The notes beneath the pieces were generated by a model that saw only the letters and a list, made by a program, of their open reading frames with translations, was not told where the DNA came from and did not search any database. The position numbers and the translations under genes were made by a program. 64,000 nucleotides of DNA from Actinomycetota bacterium (GTDB lineage Bacteria; Actinomycetota; Thermoleophilia; BMS3ABIN01): assembly GCA_016235065.1 (NCBI GenBank), contig JACRMB010000003.1, forward strand, positions 186,001-250,000, in the 5' to 3' direction. Shown here piece after piece: positions 18,266-37,576 of this stretch. Numbering within the stretch: the stretch's first letter is position 1; the number at the start of each line of letters is the position of its first letter.

Positions 18266-18946
18266 ATGGCCACGCCTGACAACAGAAATCGCAAACCGCG
18301 AAAAAACCGGTTCGGCAGGAATCTGTCTCCGCTACTGCCGCTTGTGTTTCTGACCGCAATCATCACCTTCTCAGGCGCCGCTGGCTGCGGCGAAGCCGAG
18401 CAGACGATTCCAGGAACTCCTTTCAGGCAGGGCGCCATCAGCAGAAAGACCGCCGTCATGGCTGATCGACTGGACAAGCGCGTGACCAATCTGGTCGTCA
18501 CCATCCCGGCGAAGAAATACCAGGCATCGCTCCAGGAGAAACAGCGCATCGGCTCCATCGAGATTCCGCGCCTCGGCATCCGCGAGTGGGTCATCCAGGG
18601 TTCGTCGACCGAATCCCTGAAGCTGGGCGCGGGACATATCGAGGGTACTTCCATCCCGGGGCTCGGCGGCAACTTCGCCATCGCCGGGGACCGGGTGCTC
18701 TATTCGGCCCCGTTCCTGCGGATGGAACAGCTGGAGCCCGGTGACGAGCTGCTGGTCCATATGCCGTATGGAGAATTCACCTACCAGGTTGAGATCAAGA
18801 CGAACGTGGATCCCACCGAAGTCAGCGTGCTCAAGCCCAGGGGCTATGATTCCGTCACCCTGAGCACCTGCGATCCCCCCTGGGGGCTATCAACACGCAT
18901 CATCATCTTCGCCAAGCTGGTCAAAACGGAGCCCAGGGCAGCCTGA
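18266..18946 (+). CDS. Sortase-like protein (class E/D type) lacking the catalytic histidine
   Basis: 226 aa. Lys/Arg-rich N-terminus, one hydrophobic segment (about 23-40), then a sortase beta-barrel. The catalytic Cys (LSTCDPP) and Arg (STRI) are in place, but the position that reads AGHR in active class D/E sortases reads AGDR: codon GAC at 18689-18691, residue 142. Without this His the usual Cys-His-Arg triad is incomplete, so it may be inactive, altered, or a pseudo-enzyme. GGGGG lies four bases before the ATG. No LPxTG-type substrate was noticed in the window. Confidence 0.8.
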   Translation: MATPDNRNRKPRKNRFGRNLSPLLPLVFLTAIITFSGAAGCGEAEQTIPGTPFRQGAISRKTAVMADRLDKRVTNLVVTIPAKKYQASLQEKQRIGSIEIPRLGIREWVIQGSSTESLKLGAGHIEGTSIPGLGGNFAIAGDRVLYSAPFLRMEQLEPGDELLVHMPYGEFTYQVEIKTNVDPTEVSVLKPRGYDSVTLSTCDPPWGLSTRIIIFAKLVKTEPRAA

Positions 18947-29453: not shown

Positions 29454-29552
29454 GTGACAAACCAGCAGGAAGCACTTCCGTGCGCCGGCCAAGCGCACGC
29501 TTTTGACCCAGACCGAGTCTTTACTAACGCAAGTAGGAGGATGAAGGGATGA
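29454..29552 (+). CDS. Possible 32-aa upstream leader peptide coupled to module 1
   Basis: GTG start with AGGAGG four bases upstream; 32 codons whose TGA stop overlaps the ATG of the secreted protein gene (ATGA). The second half reads FDPDRVFTN, encoded by the 28-nt element also found upstream of module 2. In module 2 the same frame runs straight into the main gene rather than stopping, which weakens the case for a real peptide. If translated it could couple or attenuate expression. Confidence 0.3.
   Translation: MTNQQEALPCAGQAHAFDPDRVFTNASRRMKG
29502..29529 (+). promoter_or_regulatory. 28-nt leader element, copy 1
   Basis: Begins TTTGACCCAGACCGAG and ends TTTACTAACG; identical over all 28 positions to 31750-31777. 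It ends 19 bases before the start codon, just ahead of the Shine-Dalgarno. It contains AGAC-CGA-GTCT, a small stem. TTGACC and TAACG resemble promoter hexamers 16 bases apart, but a promoter here would start transcription inside the ribosome site, so an RNA-level role is more likely. Confidence 0.45.
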
Positions 29553-30943
29553 AAGCAAGTTATAAGATCAGCCTCGTGGCCGTACTGGCTATGAGCCTGG
29601 CTCTCGTTATGATCCTGGGAGCCAGCATGGGCAGCGCCGCTGCGCCGGACCCTCAGCTCACCAATGACCTGGTACTGATGGCTAACGGTGGCGCAGGCGC
29701 CAACAACATCAAAGTCATCGATATCGACGGCATGGCTGTCGTCAACACGATCGCTGGCGGCACGTCGCTGGCGAACAACCACGATACTATCCTCGACAGC
29801 AGCGGTCGGTACCTCTGGAATACTAATAACAGCCTCGCTGCAGGCAAGGCCAGGGTCACCAAATTCGACCTGGGCACTCTGACTGAGGTCGGTGTGTACG
29901 ATACAGCTGCCGCCGACATGTATGCCTTCACGACCGGCTTCTGCGGTATCGAGTACAACCAGAACAACAAGGCCAGTGGTGAGATATGGGCAGCCAGCAT
30001 GTCGGGTGTCGCAACCAATGGTGGTATCTACAAGTTCAACGAAGCGAATCCCAATGGCTCCCCCTGGGTTTATATGGACGTCAGCGCCGGTACTGATAGC
30101 GGCCAGACCTGCGGTATTGGCTGGAACGCTTCAAACACGGTGGCTTATGCTTCCCTGATGGGCGCCAAGAAGACCACTGAGAGCTCCTGGCCAGGCGGCG
30201 GTGTGACCCGCTCGGTCCTCGAGACTACTCCGCTTCATCAGCTGGACGTCGACAAGACCAACGGCATCATCTACACAACCGCCGGCAAGGATGTCACCGG
30301 CATGGGTTACATCGACATCATCGATGCTTCGACCATGACCCTGGTGAACCACCTGGCTACCGGTAATCCCAGCCAGCCTCATGATGCTGAGATCGCCCAT
30401 GGCGGCTTCATGTATGTCCATTCCCGCGAGGGTATGCCGACTGAGCCCAAGGGCGTTCTGATGATCTTCGACATCGGCGGCGGCACGGCCGGTGGCACAA
30501 GCATCAACCCGGTCCTGATCGGCACCATTCCTGATCAGGGTACCAGCACCGTATCCTGCGGTAACGAGACGCTGGTCAAGAGCAACTACTGTGCCCAGCC
30601 TTCGCTGAGCATCAGCAAGAACAGCGTGTACTGGGCCAGCTATGCTGACTACACCGCCATGAAACTGTCGGTTGACTACAGCATCGGCAACGCCGCTGGC
30701 GGAACTCACGCCTACGCGGTCGAGCTGGTTGGCACAGTAAATACCCAGGGTGTCATTCTCGATACCGTCACTCCGATGAGCATCGGAAACATCCCGGCTG
30801 GAAGCAGCGCCCCAGTGACGCTCAAGTACAACATCCCAGTCGGCGTAGCGGCCTTCCAGTCGACGGCTTACGCCACAGCGAAGGACCTCTGCAACAATAC
30901 CTATGAGTATCCTGGTGCATGGCCGGGAGGCCCCCTGTACTAG
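29549..30943 (+). CDS. Secreted beta-propeller-like protein with C-terminal WASYADYTA domain (module 1)
   Basis: 464 aa with a Sec-type signal peptide (Lys at 2, hydrophobic 9-28, cleavage near GSAAA). The body (about 35-345) has repeated strands of the YVTN/propeller type (NNIKVIDIDGMAVVNTI, RVTKFDLGTLTEVGV, YIDIIDASTMTLVNHL). It keeps His-containing spots (NNHDT, SQPHD) and several Cys. The C-terminal domain of ~120 residues starts at SISKNSVYWASYADYTA and ends CNNTYEYPGAWP; it is shared with 31795-33195 and 35369-37216. Function unknown; an extracellular binding or redox protein is a guess. The 44-aa peptide gene follows after 48 bases. Confidence 0.8.
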   Translation: MKASYKISLVAVLAMSLALVMILGASMGSAAAPDPQLTNDLVLMANGGAGANNIKVIDIDGMAVVNTIAGGTSLANNHDTILDSSGRYLWNTNNSLAAGKARVTKFDLGTLTEVGVYDTAAADMYAFTTGFCGIEYNQNNKASGEIWAASMSGVATNGGIYKFNEANPNGSPWVYMDVSAGTDSGQTCGIGWNASNTVAYASLMGAKKTTESSWPGGGVTRSVLETTPLHQLDVDKTNGIIYTTAGKDVTGMGYIDIIDASTMTLVNHLATGNPSQPHDAEIAHGGFMYVHSREGMPTEPKGVLMIFDIGGGTAGGTSINPVLIGTIPDQGTSTVSCGNETLVKSNYCAQPSLSISKNSVYWASYADYTAMKLSVDYSIGNAAGGTHAYAVELVGTVNTQGVILDTVTPMSIGNIPAGSSAPVTLKYNIPVGVAAFQSTAYATAKDLCNNTYEYPGAWPGGPLY

Positions 30944-30991
30944 GGGTGAGCTCCAGGTAATCGAGATATGACGAGAAAGGAGAAACGCGAT

Positions 30992-31126
30992 ATGACCGCA
31001 AAGAAAAACGATCATCGTGAGCCTTACGCGAAGCCGGAACTGGTGAGGCATGATAACTTGAAGGACATCACCTTCGAGTGCCCCCAGTGGCAGTGCAGCG
31101 TAGTGGTTCCGCCGCCGCCGGCCTAA
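30992..31126 (+). CDS. 44-aa RiPP-precursor-like peptide, copy 1
   Basis: Short gene with GGAG 9 bases before its ATG. The N-terminal part (MTAKKNDHREP) is followed by YAKPELVRHDNLKDIT, which resembles the leader recognised by RRE proteins in lasso and related RiPP precursors (YxxPxL...LxxT). The C-terminal part is FECPQWQCSVVVPPPPA: two Cys four residues apart and a Pro run. Copy 2 (33261-33395) is identical except for N6S; copy 3 (37269-37397) has a different N-terminus and only K for R afterwards. Compared with copy 3 there are ten base changes after the GAG codon, nine synonymous. No maturation enzymes are nearby. An in-frame ATG at 30968 is less well placed. Confidence 0.8.
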   Translation: MTAKKNDHREPYAKPELVRHDNLKDITFECPQWQCSVVVPPPPA

Positions 31127-31159
31127 GGCCAGTCCGGCGCAGATACAACTGGTATCAAC

Positions 31160-31191
31160 GGGAGGATGGATCCGCAAGGATCCATCCTCCC
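31160..31191 (+). terminator. Hairpin after peptide copy 1
   Basis: 14-bp perfect stem (GGGAGGATGGATCC / complement) with loop GCAA, followed by TGTTGTTTTAC. Probably ends the secreted-protein and peptide transcript. Similar hairpins follow peptide copies 2 and 3. Confidence 0.65.
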
Positions 31192-31282
31192 TGTTGTTTT
31201 ACACCAGACTTTCACTTTCAGGCCAAATAGATTCATCCGACGCCCTATTATTTATTTAGCTTCCCAAATCGGGGAAAAAATC

Positions 31283-31412
31283 AGGGTATACCCTTAAATA
31301 CAATTTGCTGTTTTCTTCAAAAAGTATCACTTATAGGTATACCCCGGGGGGCTTATATCCCCCTCTAATTGAGTCTATATCATCATTAAATTAGACCATT
31401 TGCATCATGTAA
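31283..31412 (+). promoter_or_regulatory. Conserved upstream block of module 2 (palindromes plus GCATCATGTAA)
   Basis: Perfect 12-bp palindrome AGGGTATACCCT (31283-31294), palindromic box TATACCCCGGGGGGC (31338-31352) and GCATCATGTAA (31402-31412). From the second box onward the spacing equals module 1 without gaps, while the flanking sequence has diverged, which marks these blocks as constrained. Box to start codon is about 440 bases here and about 420 in module 1. Confidence 0.5.
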
Positions 31413-31749
31413 AAACCCTAATTTCGAGTAAACTACTTGCATTATAAGTGTCGTTATCAACTATTCGGGAGAAATCGGAACGCGAAAGCGGTAGTTGGGT
31501 TACGGGCTTGGCATTATATTTATCGGCCGACGTGGAAGCTGCAGCATTCAGTAGAGTCGACGGTATCAATGAACTGAAGTCACCCAAAGTTCGGCGCGTG
31601 GTTTTGCGACCGCTTTTTACGGTTTCATCGGATCAGCACGAGACACTTACATTATTAATAACCCTCCCGGCCAGGAGGGGCATGAAAGGCAGGTGGTACA
31701 CAGAGATAACAGGTAGTGCGGTACGGTGGGTAACGTACTTTTCTTTTTG

Positions 31750-31777
31750 TTTGACCCAGACCGAGTCTTTACTAACG
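31750..31777 (+). promoter_or_regulatory. 28-nt leader element, copy 2
   Basis: Identical to 29502-29529. It ends 17 bases before the module 2 start codon. Sequence upstream of it is unlike that of module 1, so the identity is local. Confidence 0.45.
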
Positions 31778-31794
31778 AAGAAGGAGGGGAAGGG

Positions 31795-33195
31795 ATGAAA
31801 GCAAGTTGGAAATTAGGGCTCGTGGCCATCATGACCATGAGCCTGGCTCTGATACTAATCCTCGGAGCCACTATTGGTAGCGCTGCAGCGCCGAATCCGG
31901 CACTCAGCAATGATCTACTCCTGATCGGTAACGGTGGCGCCGGCGCCAATAACATCAAGGTTGTCGATGTTGACGCCATGGCTACTGTGAACACAATCGC
32001 CGGCGGCACGTCGCTGGCCAACAACCACGGCACCATCGTGGACAGTACTGGACGTTATTTGTATAACACCAACAACGCTCTAGTCGGTACCGGCGCGACC
32101 GCCAAGACCAGGGTCACCAAGTTCGACCTGGGTACCCTGACTGAGGTTGGCGTCATGGACGGCGCCAGCGCTGACGGTTATGCTCTTGGTTCAGGCGCCT
32201 GCGGCATTGAGTGGAACCTGAACGATTCGTCTACTGGCAAGCTCTGGGTAACCAGCATGTCCGCCAGCACGACCAACGGCGGCCTCTATGAGGTCGACCA
32301 GACCACCGGTTTCACCGGCAGGTTCGTCGATAACACCGCTGGCGCAGATAACGGCGCGACCTGCGGTATCGGTTGGAACGCCAGTGGCTCCCTGGCTTAT
32401 GGCGCAGCCATGAACGCCAAGAAGACCACCGAGATCACCAATCTCAGCAGCGGCACCCCCGCGCTTGGCGCGAGCGCCGTTTCCGCTACGGTGCTTCACA
32501 TGATGACGACCGACAAGGTAAACGGCCTGGCCTATGTGGCCGCCGGTAAGGATGCAGCCAACAACGGTTTCATCGACGTAGTCGACCTGAGCACGATGAC
32601 CGTCGTGAATCACATGCTGACGGGTAACCCGAGCCAGCCGCACGACGTCGAGATCTCCGCTGACGGTGGCTTCCTGTACTCGCACTCCCGCTTCGGCGGA
32701 CCGGGCGGCACCACTGGCAACGCCGGTCTCCTGCTCATCTACGATATCGGTAATGGTATGGCTGGCGGCACCAGGTTAGCTCCGGTGCTGGTTGGCTCCA
32801 TCGCTGATGAAGGTACAGCGACCACTTCCTGCGGTACCGAAGTGCTCGTGAAGAGCAGCTACTGCGGTTCCCCGGCACTCAGCCTCAGCAAGACCAGTGT
32901 ACTCTGGGCCAGCTATGCTGATTACACAGCCGGACTGCTGACTGTCAACTACAGCGTTGGCAATAGCGGCATCAATGCCAACACCGTCCAGATCGTCGGT
33001 TCCACCAGCACTAACGGCGTCCTTCTGGCGACAGCTACTCCGGTTGCTGTAGGCAACATCGCCACCGGCGGCAGCGCTGCAGTAACACTGCAGTACAATG
33101 TGCCTGGTAGCGTAGCGAGCTTCTCAACTACGACCTACGCGACCGCCAAGGACCTGTGCAACAACACGTATGCCTATCCTGGGGCCATGCCCTAA
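31795..33195 (+). CDS. Secreted beta-propeller-like protein with C-terminal WASYADYTA domain (module 2)
   Basis: 466 aa from the ATG at 31795, chosen by AGGAGGGGAAGGG upstream and by alignment to the module 1 paralogue (MKAS(W/Y)K start). Signal peptide, then the same propeller-like body (NNIKVVDVDAMATVNTI, RVTKFDLGTLTEVGV, FIDVVDLSTMTVVNHM) and the shared C-terminal domain (SLSKTSVLWASYADYTAGLL ... LCNNTYAYPGAMP). The two are clearly tandem duplicates, with enough divergence to be old. No transmembrane segment or sorting signal follows the last domain, so it should be released or held by partners. Confidence 0.8.
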   Translation: MKASWKLGLVAIMTMSLALILILGATIGSAAAPNPALSNDLLLIGNGGAGANNIKVVDVDAMATVNTIAGGTSLANNHGTIVDSTGRYLYNTNNALVGTGATAKTRVTKFDLGTLTEVGVMDGASADGYALGSGACGIEWNLNDSSTGKLWVTSMSASTTNGGLYEVDQTTGFTGRFVDNTAGADNGATCGIGWNASGSLAYGAAMNAKKTTEITNLSSGTPALGASAVSATVLHMMTTDKVNGLAYVAAGKDAANNGFIDVVDLSTMTVVNHMLTGNPSQPHDVEISADGGFLYSHSRFGGPGGTTGNAGLLLIYDIGNGMAGGTRLAPVLVGSIADEGTATTSCGTEVLVKSSYCGSPALSLSKTSVLWASYADYTAGLLTVNYSVGNSGINANTVQIVGSTSTNGVLLATATPVAVGNIATGGSAAVTLQYNVPGSVASFSTTTYATAKDLCNNTYAYPGAMP

Positions 33196-33260
33196 GGGCT
33201 GATCCTGATAGGTTGATGTTGTTCACCTGCAAGCAAACTGACGTGAAAGGAGAACGCGAT

Positions 33261-33395
33261 ATGACTGCAAAGAAAAGCGATCATCGTGAGCCTTACGCGA
33301 AGCCGGAACTGGTGAGGCATGATAACTTGAAGGACATCACCTTCGAGTGCCCCCAGTGGCAGTGCAGCGTAGTGGTTCCGCCGCCGCCGGCGTAA
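33261..33395 (+). CDS. 44-aa RiPP-precursor-like peptide, copy 2
   Basis: Same peptide as copy 1 with Ser for Asn at position 6. The ribosome site and preceding bases (GAAAGGAGAA then CGCGATATGAC) are also conserved with copy 1. It lies 65 bases after the module 2 secreted protein and 27 bases before a perfect hairpin. No signal peptide is present, so it is made in the cytoplasm and, if exported, needs a dedicated route. Shares the YAKPELVRHDNLKDIT leader-like part and the CPQWQC core-like part. Confidence 0.8.
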   Translation: MTAKKSDHREPYAKPELVRHDNLKDITFECPQWQCSVVVPPPPA

Positions 33396-33422
33396 GCCAG
33401 CAGGCATAAGTAACAGAAACAC

Positions 33423-33456
33423 AGAAGGGATGGGCTCGCAAGAGTCCATCCCTTCT
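33423..33456 (+). terminator. Hairpin after peptide copy 2
   Basis: 15-bp stem AGAAGGGATGGGCTC / GAGTCCATCCCTTCT with one G-U pair and loop GCAA, the same loop as after copy 1. No T-run follows, so termination would be weak or it serves as an mRNA-stabilising 3' hairpin. Confidence 0.5.
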
Positions 33457-33562
33457 GGAACAATCCTGAAGAACCGGGTTTATGGGGTGCAAGCAGGGCG
33501 GAAAGGGAGTAAAATAGCAGGATCACTTCTGTTCCGCAAACTAAGCAAGGAGAAACAACGAG

Positions 33563-34120
33563 ATGAAAGCTGGAAACCCTTACGGCAGCGGGCCCCGGGG
33601 AATGTTGATGGTAGCAGTGGCAGTGATAATGGCAGTGGGTTTAATTCTCGTTTGGGGAGGTTGTGGGGGAGACGGCAAGGAAGCAAGTACAGGCTCACAG
33701 CTCGATGACGAGTCGGTCGGTTCATCAAGTACCGGCACCAGCACGGTAAGAGGCACAGGTTCGGCAAACGGATCTGGAACCAATGACTCAAATCAGGGCA
33801 ACGTGATGGTAGATTATACTTTGAGCCAATGCATCGCCGATATGACAGTCCGTTATGGCGACGCCGCTACCGCACAGAGAGTCTGCAACGGGATCCAGGC
33901 TGATTATTCGACAGCTACGATAAGCGAGCTGCCGACAGTCCTTCCCCAGGTTGAGACTGAAGTTAGCGCCACACCGTTGCCGGGCAGCACGATCCCCGGA
34001 ACCGGCGGTTCGACAGGAGGAACTGGTAATACCGGTGGCAACACCGGAGGTAATACTGATAACAGTGGCAGTGGATGGGACTCCGGCGGTATCGAGATAG
34101 TTGTGCCGCCATCTCCCTGA
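33563..34120 (+). CDS. Small Ser/Gly/Thr-rich lipoprotein of unknown function
   Basis: 185 aa. Hydrophobic segment about 15-30 ending in a lipobox-like VWGGC, so probably lipid-anchored. Then a Ser/Thr/Gly-rich linker, a short folded-looking part (about 88-125: LSQCIADMTVRYGDAATAQRV, with two Cys) and a Gly/Asn/Thr repeat tail (TGGNTGGNTGG) ending in IVVPPSP. I recognise no family. It lies between module 2 and the HprK-related kinase, with AAGGAGAA upstream, and the kinase follows closely, so the two may be co-transcribed. Confidence 0.65.
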   Translation: MKAGNPYGSGPRGMLMVAVAVIMAVGLILVWGGCGGDGKEASTGSQLDDESVGSSSTGTSTVRGTGSANGSGTNDSNQGNVMVDYTLSQCIADMTVRYGDAATAQRVCNGIQADYSTATISELPTVLPQVETEVSATPLPGSTIPGTGGSTGGTGNTGGNTGGNTDNSGSGWDSGGIEIVVPPSP

Positions 34121-34154
34121 TATTGACGCTTAGGTGGCAGGAAAGGCGGGCAGG

Positions 34155-35180
34155 ATGCCCAGCAGTTTAGGCAAAGGGATCGCAGAGTGCATAAATGGCG
34201 TTCAGCTGAACACGGCTACTTACAGCGTGCACGGCGTTGTGACGCGCGTATACTCTGACGATCACATGCTGGCTCTGGCCATCCAGGACTTCCTCAGGTC
34301 CTTCCGCGGCCAGCCGGATGCAGAAGCCGACATCGTTTTTTATCTCCTGACAAGGGAGCCCGGCTTCGAGTTTGATCCCGGCGGCCACGGAGGCAGTCCA
34401 GAACTCCTGTACGACTGGAACGTTCTGCGATATAGCAGAGAGGGCCAGCTTCGTTACCAGGAGGTCCCGGGTGCGGGATCGATAGTATGCGATCCCGAGG
34501 CAGGGCTGGCAGTCGCTTTCGTCGAAAGCGACATGGCAGCCTGTTCGTGGTCGATGGCTCATGTGATGTTCTTCCCGATGTGGGCGCAACTGCTCAAGCA
34601 CAGGGGGATATTCCCGATCCACGCCGCTGGTCTAAGGCGGAATGGCAAAGGAATACTCTTCCCGGGAAAGAGCGGCTGCGGGAAGTCCACCATGACCCTT
34701 CACCTGATGCGTCACGGGTACAAGTTGCTGGGTGATGACACGGTATTTGTCAGGCGTACGGAAAAGGGTGCGGAAATGCTCTTTTTCCCGGAAGAAGTAG
34801 ACGTCTGTTCTGAAACCGTCGATCTTTTCCCGAACCTGGCCCTGGCGCGCAACCTGACAGAGGATCGCTGGCAACCAAAGGCGAGAGTGAATCTGAACGA
34901 GGTAGACTCGAACGCGGTGGTGGAGTCATCTTCCACTGACCTTCTGGTCTTCCCGGTCATCGCCGAGGATGGCAAGACCCGGTTTGAGCGGGTCGGACCC
35001 ACCGAAGCACTTGCCGAGCTGATTCTCTACGCTTTCCTGTTTTTGGACCCGCAGACGAGCAAGGATAACTTCGCACTCCTCGCTTCGTTGGTGCAGACGA
35101 CCAAGTGTTTTCGTCTGCATATGGGTCTGGATGGCTCTGAGCTTGCCAGAGTCGTTGATGAGATAGTCGCCGCTGCGTGA
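34155..35180 (+). CDS. HprK-related (HPr kinase-like) P-loop protein
   Basis: About 341 aa. The C-terminal half resembles HPr kinase/phosphorylase: P-loop PGKSGCGKST preceded by HAAGLRRNGKGILF, then YKLLGDDTVFV (Walker B-like, LLGDD). The N-terminal ~160 residues are unlike the HPr-kinase receptor domain. HprK-related kinases of this sort are known from loci with PqqD/RRE proteins and ribosomal peptides, and a related kinase phosphorylates a lasso peptide in other bacteria. Here it lies among three copies of a RiPP-like peptide with no HPr or PTS gene visible. A GTG at 34134 would extend it by seven residues; AGGAAAGG favours 34155. Confidence 0.75.
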   Translation: MPSSLGKGIAECINGVQLNTATYSVHGVVTRVYSDDHMLALAIQDFLRSFRGQPDAEADIVFYLLTREPGFEFDPGGHGGSPELLYDWNVLRYSREGQLRYQEVPGAGSIVCDPEAGLAVAFVESDMAACSWSMAHVMFFPMWAQLLKHRGIFPIHAAGLRRNGKGILFPGKSGCGKSTMTLHLMRHGYKLLGDDTVFVRRTEKGAEMLFFPEEVDVCSETVDLFPNLALARNLTEDRWQPKARVNLNEVDSNAVVESSSTDLLVFPVIAEDGKTRFERVGPTEALAELILYAFLFLDPQTSKDNFALLASLVQTTKCFRLHMGLDGSELARVVDEIVAAA

Positions 35181-35368
35181 GCAGTGGGGCGACGCCGGTC
35201 TGACCACCGGCACCCCTTGGTGGAGGGCAAGCGGTTAAGCCACCGGCTGTCGGTACGGGCCTCTCAGGGTGTAAGGGGAGTTAGTACCGTAAGTACACTG
35301 GGGGATGTGAGGGATCTGCATAAGCAGGTCTTAAATCCGTTTCAAGAGGATGAAGGGAGGAAGAAGAT
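35181..35368 (+). promoter_or_regulatory. Structured leader before module 3
   Basis: 188 bases with several inverted repeats in order: GCCGGT-CTGACC-ACCGGC, GGTGG...CCACC, CGGTAC...GTACCG enclosing a CCTCT/AGGGG pair, and CTGC-ATAA-GCAG. The density of stems suggests a folded 5' leader or a small RNA. I could not match it to a c-di-GMP or other riboswitch consensus. The first stem might instead terminate transcription of the kinase gene, but no T-run follows. Confidence 0.35.
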
Positions 35369-37216
35369 ATGCAAGTAAGTTCTAAATTGCTGGTAAGAAC
35401 AGCAATTGTGCTTCTGGGTGTAATGCTCGCCATGGTTGTGTTAGTGGCGGTCAACAGCCAGCAGGCGAACGCACTGAGCACGTCTCAGTGGGAGAAAGTA
35501 CGCGGCTACGTCAATGAGTACTTCGGCGGTCCGCAGTACAATGCAGGCGAGGCAGGTGAGCTCGGCTTCCGCATCACCAAGGTGGATCTGGCGGCGAGGC
35601 TGGACTCGAATAACGACATCGCTCCCAAGTATGCAACACCGGCGAGCAGCGGCACTGTCCCCGCCCCCACGACCGTCACTGGTGTCGCTGCTGAAGGCGA
35701 CAACATGGCGAACCGCCCGGTGCTCATCGATAACCTGATGACGCGTACCGACGTGATCCCGGGTACGGAATTCCGTTGTAACTGGAATGTCGATAACAGC
35801 TGCTTCGCGGATTCATCGATCTCAGCGATCAGGACGATCGTCGACAACCACAAGGCTGCCGGCTTCTCGACTGATATCGTCGATTACTGCGTCAGCGCCC
35901 AGACCGCCGGTCCGACCACGGGTGGCTTCGGCATCATCGCCCAGGTCCCTGGCGCCCTGTCAAGTGATCTCTCGCTGACACCGAATGTCTACACGCTCAA
36001 GTATGCGCGTAACGGCTGGCGTAACTACGCCACAACAGTAAGCGGCGCCAACGGGGTCACAGTACCTGAGGCACCGACCGGAGTACCTAACGCTGCTCCT
36101 ACTACCGTAGCCAACTGCGATGCTTCGGCAACCGACTACGACCTGGTCCGCTGCCAGGCCAACTGGGCCATCGCAGCCACCCTCGGCAACATCGGTAACG
36201 GCTCGACGACCACGGCTCCCATAGCTGCGCTCGCGCAGACGGTAGACATCAGGCCCGGTACGGTAAACACCGTAGCGACCGCTGGCGTCAACATGCAGGT
36301 GCCGATCGATACGCTGTTCAGCCTCAGTGGCCTGGCCAACGTGGATCCGACCAAGTCGACCGCCTTGATCACCCATACACAGCATGGCGCCGATGCAGCT
36401 ATCGGTATGAAGATGCTCGGATACAACCTGGTGGCCGCCTCCGGCAGCCTCAACGCTGGTATCGTCCGCTGGGATAGCACTCAGGGCGAGCAGCAGGTCG
36501 TCCTCGGCGATAACCTGCCGACGCAGACAATCGCTGCCTTCGCGGCCCCAGGTCCTGTTGACACGACAGGTCCGACGGTCACCAGCGTAGGCCACACCAG
36601 CGTGACCACCAGCAGCGCCGACATCGAGCGCGCAGCTGCTGAGCCGGCGACCATGAAGGTCGAATACGGCACTACCTCTGGTGGACCATACACCGGCGTA
36701 GTCAATGACACCGTGCTCAACGCGACCAAGGATGTCGCTGTCGGCAACGGCAACGCGGTGAGCCTGACCGGTCTGAGCCCGAGCACCACCTACTACTACA
36801 AGGTGACCTCGTATGATGGTTACGCCAACGGCACCGTCAGCGTCGAAGGCAACTTCACGACTCTCGCGCCGGCCTGCACGCCAGTAAAGCCGAACCTGGG
36901 AATCCAGCTCAACGGATCTCCCTTCTGGGCGAGCTATGCTGACTACACAGCCGGTCTGCTGTCTGTTGGACTGAAGATCAACAACAATGGTGCTAACGCT
37001 GCTGGCAGCGTTGCCATCACCGGCGCAACCGCCATCAACGGCGTGACGCTGGCGACGGCTACCCCGATCGCTATCGGCAGCATTGCCGGCGGCGCCTCGG
37101 GTACGACTACCGTGCAGTACAACATCCCCGCTGGTGTGATCGGCTTCAATACTGCCATCACCGCCAGCGCGTCCGATGCCTCATGTTCAGTACCATCAGG
37201 CTACACCTATCCCTAA
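35369..37216 (+). CDS. Secreted protein: two degenerate rhodanese domains, FnIII-like domain, C-terminal WASYADYTA domain (module 3)
   Basis: 615 aa, signal peptide (hydrophobic 10-28, cleavage near NALS). Residues about 40-225 look like a divergent rhodanese: VLIDNLMTRTDVIPG, then DYCVSAQTAG at the position of the CYTGNTAA loop, and LKYARNGW matching LKxGMxGW. A second copy (about 255-375) has LITHTQHGADAAIGMKMLGY in place of VVCYTGNTAAQ..LGY, with the catalytic Cys lost. Next is a fibronectin-III/phosphatase-like domain (about 395-500, TGPTVTSVG ... LSPSTTYYYKV) and the C-terminal domain shared with modules 1 and 2 (FWASYADYTAGLLSVGL ... GYTYP). It ties the peptide modules to the rhodanese proteins at 13-17 kb. 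Confidence 0.72.
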   Translation: MQVSSKLLVRTAIVLLGVMLAMVVLVAVNSQQANALSTSQWEKVRGYVNEYFGGPQYNAGEAGELGFRITKVDLAARLDSNNDIAPKYATPASSGTVPAPTTVTGVAAEGDNMANRPVLIDNLMTRTDVIPGTEFRCNWNVDNSCFADSSISAIRTIVDNHKAAGFSTDIVDYCVSAQTAGPTTGGFGIIAQVPGALSSDLSLTPNVYTLKYARNGWRNYATTVSGANGVTVPEAPTGVPNAAPTTVANCDASATDYDLVRCQANWAIAATLGNIGNGSTTTAPIAALAQTVDIRPGTVNTVATAGVNMQVPIDTLFSLSGLANVDPTKSTALITHTQHGADAAIGMKMLGYNLVAASGSLNAGIVRWDSTQGEQQVVLGDNLPTQTIAAFAAPGPVDTTGPTVTSVGHTSVTTSSADIERAAAEPATMKVEYGTTSGGPYTGVVNDTVLNATKDVAVGNGNAVSLTGLSPSTTYYYKVTSYDGYANGTVSVEGNFTTLAPACTPVKPNLGIQLNGSPFWASYADYTAGLLSVGLKINNNGANAAGSVAITGATAINGVTLATATPIAIGSIAGGASGTTTVQYNIPAGVIGFNTAITASASDASCSVPSGYTYP

Positions 37217-37268: not shown

Positions 37269-37397
37269 ATGGATAAGATAGAAGCGCGGGAGCCCTATGC
37301 AAAGCCAGAACTGGTGAAGCATGACAACTTGAAGGACATCACCTTTGAGTGTCCCCAGTGGCAGTGCAGTGTAGTGGTTCCGCCGCCGCCGGCATAA
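37269..37397 (+). CDS. 42-aa RiPP-precursor-like peptide, copy 3
   Basis: N-terminus MDKIEAREP differs from copies 1 and 2, but from EPYAKPELV onward the protein is the same apart from Lys for Arg. In the shared part, ten bases differ from copy 1 and nine changes are synonymous, so selection is on the peptide and the copies are not a recent duplication. GGGAGAAA lies upstream of the ATG. It follows the third secreted protein by 52 bases and is followed by a perfect hairpin, as in the other modules. Confidence 0.8.
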   Translation: MDKIEAREPYAKPELVKHDNLKDITFECPQWQCSVVVPPPPA

Positions 37398-37422
37398 GCC
37401 AGCAGCGATAAGCGAAATAACC

Positions 37423-37454
37423 GGAGGGGCGGGCCCAAATGGGCCCGCCCCTCC
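37423..37454 (+). terminator. Hairpin after peptide copy 3
   Basis: Perfect 14-bp stem GGAGGGGCGGGCCC / complement with loop AAAT, then GTCGTT. Same place relative to the peptide stop as the hairpins of copies 1 and 2, although the stem sequence differs. Confidence 0.6.
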
Positions 37455-37524
37455 GTCGTTAAACCGGTGAAGAAGGTGAAGAAGGGGACGGGGCAAGGGG
37501 ACGGGGCAAGGGGACGAGGAAGAA

Positions 37525-37576
37525 GGGGACACATTACTTAATTGTCAATTTATTGACAATTAAGTAATGTGTCCCC
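37525..37576. repeat. 25-bp-arm palindrome sharing the MITE end sequence
   Basis: Arms 37525-37549 and 37552-37576 are perfect complements separated by TT. The outer 19 bases, GGGGACACATTACTTAATT, match the ends of the element at 16102-16422. Just before it, GGGGACGGGGCAA is tandemly repeated. It sits between the convergent module 3 and diguanylate cyclase genes and may also act as a two-way terminator. Probably a minimal relative or internal-deletion form of the same repeat family. Confidence 0.6.

Follow-up and report, generated by a model that had tools for sequence, protein, structure and literature searches.

Why should three genes for secreted proteins end in a common domain, and why should each be followed directly, on the same strand, by a gene for a small peptide? 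The question arises from a 64,000-nucleotide stretch of an Actinomycetota bacterium (assembly GCA_016235065.1, contig JACRMB010000003.1, positions 186,001 to 250,000), the whole of which is called "the window" here. The domain, the peptide and a lasso-type maturation system are very likely associated with one another. The best explanation as a whole, which we hold tentatively and just short of evenly balanced, is that the processed core of the peptide serves as a donor strand for this lineage-restricted, C-terminal domain of surface proteins. The features concerned, in window coordinates, are:

29549..30943, + strand: secreted protein 1 (464 amino acids), with a signal-like N-terminus, a propeller-like body and the C-terminal domain
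30581..30940, + strand: C-terminal domain of protein 1
30992..31126, + strand: peptide 1, with a YxKPxL motif in its leader and the core ECPQWQCSVVVPPPPA
31160..31191, + strand: terminator-like hairpin 3' of peptide 1
31795..33195, + strand: secreted protein 2 (466 amino acids)
32854..33192, + strand: C-terminal domain of protein 2, the copy modelled (predicted local distance difference test, pLDDT, 95)
33261..33395, + strand: peptide 2
33563..34120, + strand: small lipoprotein-like gene, read as such by eye (WGGC) and kept at the same place in relatives
34134..35180, + strand: HPr-kinase-like gene, probably a peptide kinase
35369..37216, + strand: secreted protein 3 (615 amino acids), with a fibronectin type III (FnIII)-like part and the C-terminal domain
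36887..37213, + strand: C-terminal domain of protein 3
37269..37397, + strand: peptide 3
37422..37455, no strand assigned: G+C-rich hairpin 3' of peptide 3, which the scan put on the - strand

The first-pass annotation had described one C-terminal domain shared by three otherwise different secreted proteins. The domain itself stands: about 110 residues are homologous by BLASTP, with 42% identity over 129 residues between the C-terminal parts of proteins 1 and 3 (E 5e-18, with composition correction) and 46% between those of proteins 2 and 3 (E 1e-26, without it), so that by alignment the homology is well beyond chance. Proteins 1 and 2, however, are 59-60% identical across their full length; they are whole-length duplicates, and the window holds two architectures rather than three. 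Their peptides are also close, one residue apart in protein sequence. The propeller-like body of proteins 1 and 2 has no Pfam match. As for the "rhodanese/FnIII" body proposed for protein 3, the FnIII-like part was recovered (Pur_ac_phosph_N, 2.8e-7) but the rhodanese was not, there being no Pfam match to it at E<=1, although 17 of the 72 peptide-linked relatives scanned do have rhodanese matches.

Is the domain confined to these three genes? In the window's own genome, that of a Thermoleophilia-type actinobacterium (2.37 Mb), one copy used as query matched 39 times, in 38 genes, bearing out the suggestion of a mobile module with further members. In 33 of the 38 the domain reaches to within about 20 residues of the protein end (C3:317404, one of the 33, with an insertion ahead of that end), and a simple hydrophobicity rule calls a signal-like N-terminus in 34; among the four without such a call, C9:1545 has its start cut by a contig end and the other three have hydrophobic stretches outside the rule's window. 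The bodies, annotated for 30 of the 38 proteins in one scan and for three more in another, are unrelated: NosD/beta-helix, LVIVD and PD40 propellers, subtilase, GH26, GH113, metallophosphoesterase, GDSL lipase, EB_dh, Ig arrays and rhodanese. Two cysteines of the domain, Cys10 and Cys108, tend to occur together (both in 19 of 35 copies, neither in 12, one only in 4; Fisher p 6e-6, ancestry ignored) and likely form a disulfide, which the argument does not need.

Could the domain be a sortase or PEP-CTERM signal? This was rejected: a hydrophobic or LPXTG tail is lacking in 37 of the 38 proteins, and in the one with such a tail the domain is internal. In that protein (C6:63505-63768) the tail is LPMTG-like, of the sortase kind, and there is also a long Asp/Ser repeat. 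One of the genome's three sortase genes lies in the window itself, at 18266-18946.

Another possibility, that the domain is an ordinary member of CARDB or DUF11, was rejected because its scores fall under the Pfam gathering cut-offs. For the ten copies scored in detail, the best values were 20.4 bits against 22.7 for CARDB (PF07705), 18.4 against 24.6 for DUF11 (PF01345), and 24.7 against 27 for DUF7507 (PF24346). Weak similarity to these families was found in 10, 5 and 6 of 35 copies, respectively (best E for CARDB, 3.3e-4), and the profile matches stop early, at 69-83 of 101 positions for CARDB and at 98 of 114 for DUF11. No recognised Pfam or NCBIfam family matched the domain above its cut-off. 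The C-terminal domain (CTD) of type IX secretion, type A, itself Ig-like, is absent (as TIGR04183) from the families matched by the 35 copies at E<=1; a weak TIGR04183 match of protein 1 falls in its body, at residues 33-94, not in the tail domain.

An AlphaFold2 (AF2) model of the protein 2 domain reached a pLDDT of 95.1 and a predicted template modelling score (pTM) of 0.84. Its neighbours by VIA-align are the gamma-adaptin ear, gamma-COP, TRAP-beta, ApaG, and integrin and transglutaminase modules, the best single-domain rows having Z 8-10 over 92-104 aligned residues at a root-mean-square deviation (rmsd) of about 3-4; Foldseek alone was weak (best E 7.7e-3). As modelled, the domain is an Ig-like two-sheet sandwich of the CARDB/adaptin-ear type, and the CARDB-like beta-sandwich suggested in the first-pass annotation agrees with this fold as well as with the sub-cut-off sequence scores.

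The domain belongs to a single family of subsurface actinobacteria. Searched with a profile of 35 copies (A1, from which three short or odd copies of the 38 were left out), each of the 19 family genomes sampled, which span seven genera, gave 11-39 matches. Across the class, 22 of 299 genomes matched among the candidates scored per genome: the 19 of the family and three others with a single match each, so that outside the family the domain appears in 3 of 280 genomes, not the wide distribution without the peptide expected of an ordinary CARDB or DUF11 domain. Two of these three matches are weak (6e-5, 2e-6), and the third, in genome G104, equals a gene of family genome G002 in score, frame length and stop, and is therefore probably contamination or a recent transfer. 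In a sample of the phylum, 9 of 396 genomes matched, seven of them from the family and the other two weakly. A scan for the motif WASYADY found 24 loci, 23 of them in metagenome-assembled genomes (MAGs) labelled Thermoleophilia, Gaiellales, "Actinomycetes" or bacterium, and one short, doubtful match in a Kapaibacterium MAG. No relatives were found in the viral contigs searched or, with protein 2 as query, in the plasmids searched, and PDB sequences matched neither the domain profile nor the protein 2 body.

The peptide has the same range: a profile of nine peptides matched in the same 19 genomes, at 4-12 copies each, and in none of the 280 other class genomes. The two are also neighbours. Of the 117 peptide matches listed outside the window's own genome, with E up to about 1e-11, 74 lie at most 250 nucleotides downstream of the end of a domain gene on the same strand (median gap 55.5 nucleotides), and 11 lie at a contig end. 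In all 74 linked genes the domain is C-terminal, within 7 residues of the protein end in 64 and within 35 in the rest. In the window's own genome 7 of 11 peptide matches follow a domain gene and an eighth is upstream of one. Conversely, a peptide follows 7 of its 38 domain genes, so the claim that the domain "always" stands just upstream of the peptide holds for the three window copies and fails genome-wide; within the family at large, too, most domain copies have no adjacent peptide gene. When the label "has a peptide" is mapped on a tree of 127 domains, 11 changes suffice; shuffled labels take 42.4, and none of 500 shuffles goes as low. Near-copies contribute to this clustering. In five genomes (G000, the window's own, and G001, G003, G005 and G007) a gene consisting of only a signal peptide and the domain is followed by a peptide gene.

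Some further observations concern these peptides and the bodies linked to them. In the linked proteins scanned (72 of the 74), rhodanese occurs in 17 bodies, multihaem cytochromes in about 4, ethylbenzene-dehydrogenase-type (EB_dh) parts in 3 and a multicopper oxidase in one, whereas bodies not linked to a peptide are, in the window's own genome, chiefly hydrolases, propellers and beta-helices; the apparent redox bias is taken from comparison of these body lists only. Peptide genes without a neighbouring domain gene recur across genomes (C3:270565 and C1:74731 in G000, with relatives elsewhere), some with shared upstream sequence (EGGVGMKK...). On contigs 3 and 7 of G000, two small open reading frames (ORFs; L051:5216-5467 and L067:6507-6689) have the same kind of leader and His/Gly/Asp-rich ends, WQCSF followed by HHSHQHGRGHGNGN or GGERDDDHEDGG; they are perhaps metal-binding relatives of the peptide.

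The core follows the pattern ECxxWxCSVxVP..., behind a lasso-type leader in which Tyr, Pro and Thr are invariant (YxxPxL, with Thr at -2 if the leader is cut before ECxxW). Core positions 5, 7, 9 and 11 (W/F, C, V/I, V) are near-invariant and positions 4 and 10 vary; positions 2, 5, 7, 8, 11 and 12 are partly fixed by the search pattern. Such alternation suggests a strand with one buried face. Among 119 peptides, cores are more alike within genomes than between them (0.85 vs 0.743; 0 of 300 label shuffles), most strikingly at position 4 (0.607 vs 0.200), while leaders hardly differ (0.618 vs 0.607; 22 of 300 shuffles). Since synonymous codons are equally different within and between genomes (0.385 and 0.384), the likeness of cores is not simply recent copying; identical DNA was seen in 3 of 84 within-genome pairs sharing an identical 14-residue core. 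With cores alike and leaders drifting, something common to the cell keeps the cores alike: a common pool of donor strands would account for this, and so would a shared maturation enzyme or receptor. The domains group by orthologue across genomes, which argues against a private core for each domain.

How might the peptide be matured? The HPr-kinase-like gene of the window lies, with the lipoprotein-like gene, between units 2 and 3; it scores 34.2 bits with PF07475, just above the cut-off of 33.3, and 65 bits with TIGR04352, far below the cut-off of 200. In 10 other genomes an orthologue, 66-88% identical, follows a peptide, and the lipoprotein-like gene is usually there too (in G004, just a 64-residue stretch is visible at the locus end). 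A second HPr-like kinase gene, 37% identical to the first, opens a separate locus in the same genome, where it is joined by genes for a PqqD protein, a B2-type peptidase and a DUF2079 membrane protein. The PqqD protein scores 63.6 bits with PF05402 (cut-off 23.4) and 58 with the lasso PqqD NCBIfam model, under its cut-off of 80; the B2 protein scores 54.4 with PF13471 (cut-off 26) and 44.3 with the NCBIfam B2 model (cut-off 33). The PqqD gene was found at E<1e-39 in 17 of the 19 family genomes, the other two being 78% and 69% complete. Among 18 PqqD loci, one of them cut by a contig end, the kinase accompanies it in 17, B2 in 16 and DUF2079 in 13. A domain protein is encoded beside this locus in 7 of 10 other genomes examined, but the seven genes form one orthologous group and are not independent cases. 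An NTP (nucleoside triphosphate)-transferase-like gene, named by eye and without a match in a PDB sequence search, lies beside the locus in three of 11 genomes (G018 L261:8200-9408; G007 L258:10398-11642; G010 L263:4410-5513).

No macrolactam cyclase was seen in the maturation locus of the window's own genome; the three full-length Asn_synthase genes elsewhere in that genome score 220-342 against a lasso-cyclase cut-off of 525. In all 46 distinct cores positions 7, 8 and 9 are Cys, Ser and Val/Ile, and the Asp or Glu of a lasso ring is absent.

Peptide docking, one of the roles first suggested for the domain, finds support in gene linkage and in a model of domain plus peptide. In this fused model (P0004, with an alignment, A6, of domain-only relatives) the protein 1 domain is read through two stops into peptide 1. 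The pLDDT is about 50 in spacer and leader but 86 and 83 in the core, which forms a strand at residues 177-181. With only the domain, each of the 50 structural neighbours listed stops at residues 115-118; with the fused chain each aligns through residues 181-187, mostly with 6-13 more residues at the chain end, and because the spacer is unstructured the added residues must be peptide core. The neighbours' own ranges grow from 712-812 to 713-822 in 1gyv, from 645-755 to 645-764 in 1r4x and from 7-118 to 7-128 in 1xq4_C, at similar or lower rmsd, and the best Foldseek E is 5.2e-4 for the fused chain vs 7.7e-3 for the domain alone. The core is thus predicted to occupy the place of the neighbours' last strand, which the domain lacks.

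Taken together, these findings point to the following tentative scheme. The domain would be an Ig-like sandwich ending one strand short, carried by dozens of unrelated secreted proteins. The HPr-like kinase, a PqqD-type recognition protein, a B2-type leader peptidase and DUF2079 protein would make up the locus that removes the leader, and the kinase would probably phosphorylate the invariant serine of the core. The freed core would then dock as a donor strand along the domain's open edge, and the completed domain would lock, tether or assemble the surface protein; one species-specific core, drawn from a shared pool, would serve many domain proteins in trans. Chaperone-usher pili show a comparable arrangement: there an incomplete Ig fold receives its missing strand from the next subunit or from a chaperone, whereas here a processed peptide would supply it, and the likeness is drawn at the level of fold logic. 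A further possibility, which we consider unlikely, is that the envelope retains the modified peptide (perhaps by a phosphate- or glycan-linked group that the kinase and the DUF2079 protein add) as a universal socket strand for tail-domain proteins; if true, this would be sortase-free anchoring by a peptide with a species-specific code, and a ribosomally synthesized and post-translationally modified peptide (RiPP) would be a structural part rather than a bioactive product.

Docking of the core as a donor strand has about even standing, and several points weigh against it. Z-scores are not higher with the peptide (9qpq, 10.1 to 9.1); the fused model is a single artificial chain made without a control peptide, it starts from a different domain copy than the domain-alone model (protein 1 vs protein 2), and the placement of the strand is read from neighbour alignments and pLDDT, not coordinates. 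The domain alone is already predicted at pLDDT 95, and any open edge may accept a strand-like peptide. Five of the 38 copies in the window's own genome are non-terminal, with 148 to 419 residues after the domain; one of them (C3:631459) has a plausible strand of its own right after it (GAITVDVPAA), but since this holds for just one of the five the own-strand idea stays weak. Of the 117 listed peptides, 32 lack an upstream domain gene although no contig end lies next to them; a peptide adjoins only 7 of the 38 domain genes of the window's own genome; and many forks of the domain tree are unresolved. No signal sequence was seen in the peptide by eye, nor was an ABC transporter around the maturation locus in 11 genomes, whose neighbouring genes were read by eye and partly profile-scanned.

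The 31 domain genes without an adjacent peptide would be expected if the domain were instead a family-specific surface-attachment or spacer module, binding cell wall or another polymer, and the peptide were merely co-transcribed with some other role. The bodies are typical of extracellular enzymes and adhesins (GH26, GH113, subtilase, metallophosphoesterase, GDSL, beta-helix, Ig), and with 37 of 38 proteins lacking a hydrophobic or LPXTG tail some other means of retention would be needed. This explanation is somewhat unlikely: it leaves unexplained why the peptide has an equal taxonomic range, why peptide-linked domains cluster on the tree, and why a domain gene stands at the maturation locus. 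The many extreme C-terminal copies per genome behind signal-like N-termini (34 of 38), in a restricted lineage, could also be read as marking proteins for export or sorting, as the type IX CTD and PEP-CTERM do, with the peptide regulating or accompanying the cargo. That is quite improbable given the five internal or N-terminal copies, one of them before an LPMTG-like tail (C6:63505), and no candidate machine was identified, sorting machinery beyond sortases not having been searched for. Finally, a species-specific core and lasso-type maturation genes would suit a secreted lasso-like signal or toxin, with the domain proteins as receptors or decoys, but the dozens of unrelated bodies that bear the domain, the cyclase missing from the locus and the absence of Asp or Glu at core positions 7-9 make this very improbable.

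Comparison with known systems gives partial likenesses. CARDB, DUF11 and DUF7507 are likewise secreted Ig-like sandwiches of weakly similar sequence, but the domain described here has its own N-terminal motif (WASYADY), a one-family range and a link to the peptide. The type IX CTD is also a tail domain on many unrelated secreted proteins per genome (PMC12618676); the present domain differs in lacking a TIGR04183 match and in its actinobacterial host. PEP-CTERM and LPXTG are similarly lineage-patchy tail signals repeated many times per genome (PMC1569441), but the tail here is about 110 residues long and 37 of 38 proteins have no hydrophobic or basic tail.

For the peptide, the closest parallels are the paeninodin lasso peptides and the linear polyphosphorylated peptides (LPP), as set out in PMC13381572 and PMC10368454: common features are the YxxP leader motif, Thr two residues before the cut, a discrete PqqD-type protein and an HPr-like kinase. 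Those clusters also have an uncharacterised NTP transferase, for which there is the by-eye counterpart in three of 11 loci. Like LPP, and unlike lasso peptides, the present system combines a kinase and a discrete RiPP recognition element (RRE) with the absence of a cyclase; LPP have an SpI-like leader peptidase and variable cores, whereas here there are a B2 peptidase and a near-invariant core. It also differs from both in its many precursor genes per genome, which stand away from the maturation locus and behind genes for secreted proteins. The roles of paeninodin lasso peptides and LPP are given as unknown in PMC13381572. Gene order and taxonomic range tie the present lasso-type peptide to one structural domain and so offer a concrete candidate role, the completion of an Ig-like fold; the literature searched gave no description of the domain, the peptide family or a RiPP as donor strand. 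If true, the idea that the core completes the domain would join RiPP biosynthesis to surface-protein assembly, as a new way of assembling the cell surface. It would also give a handle on surface building in an uncultured lineage, among whose peptide-linked bodies are the rhodanese, multihaem cytochrome and ethylbenzene-dehydrogenase-type parts noted above.

One minor feature lies just past unit 3: a near-perfect 48-base inverted repeat (37527-37574; stem 20, loop 8) beside GGGGACGGGGCAA repeats, which may be a small mobile or REP (repetitive extragenic palindromic)-like element.

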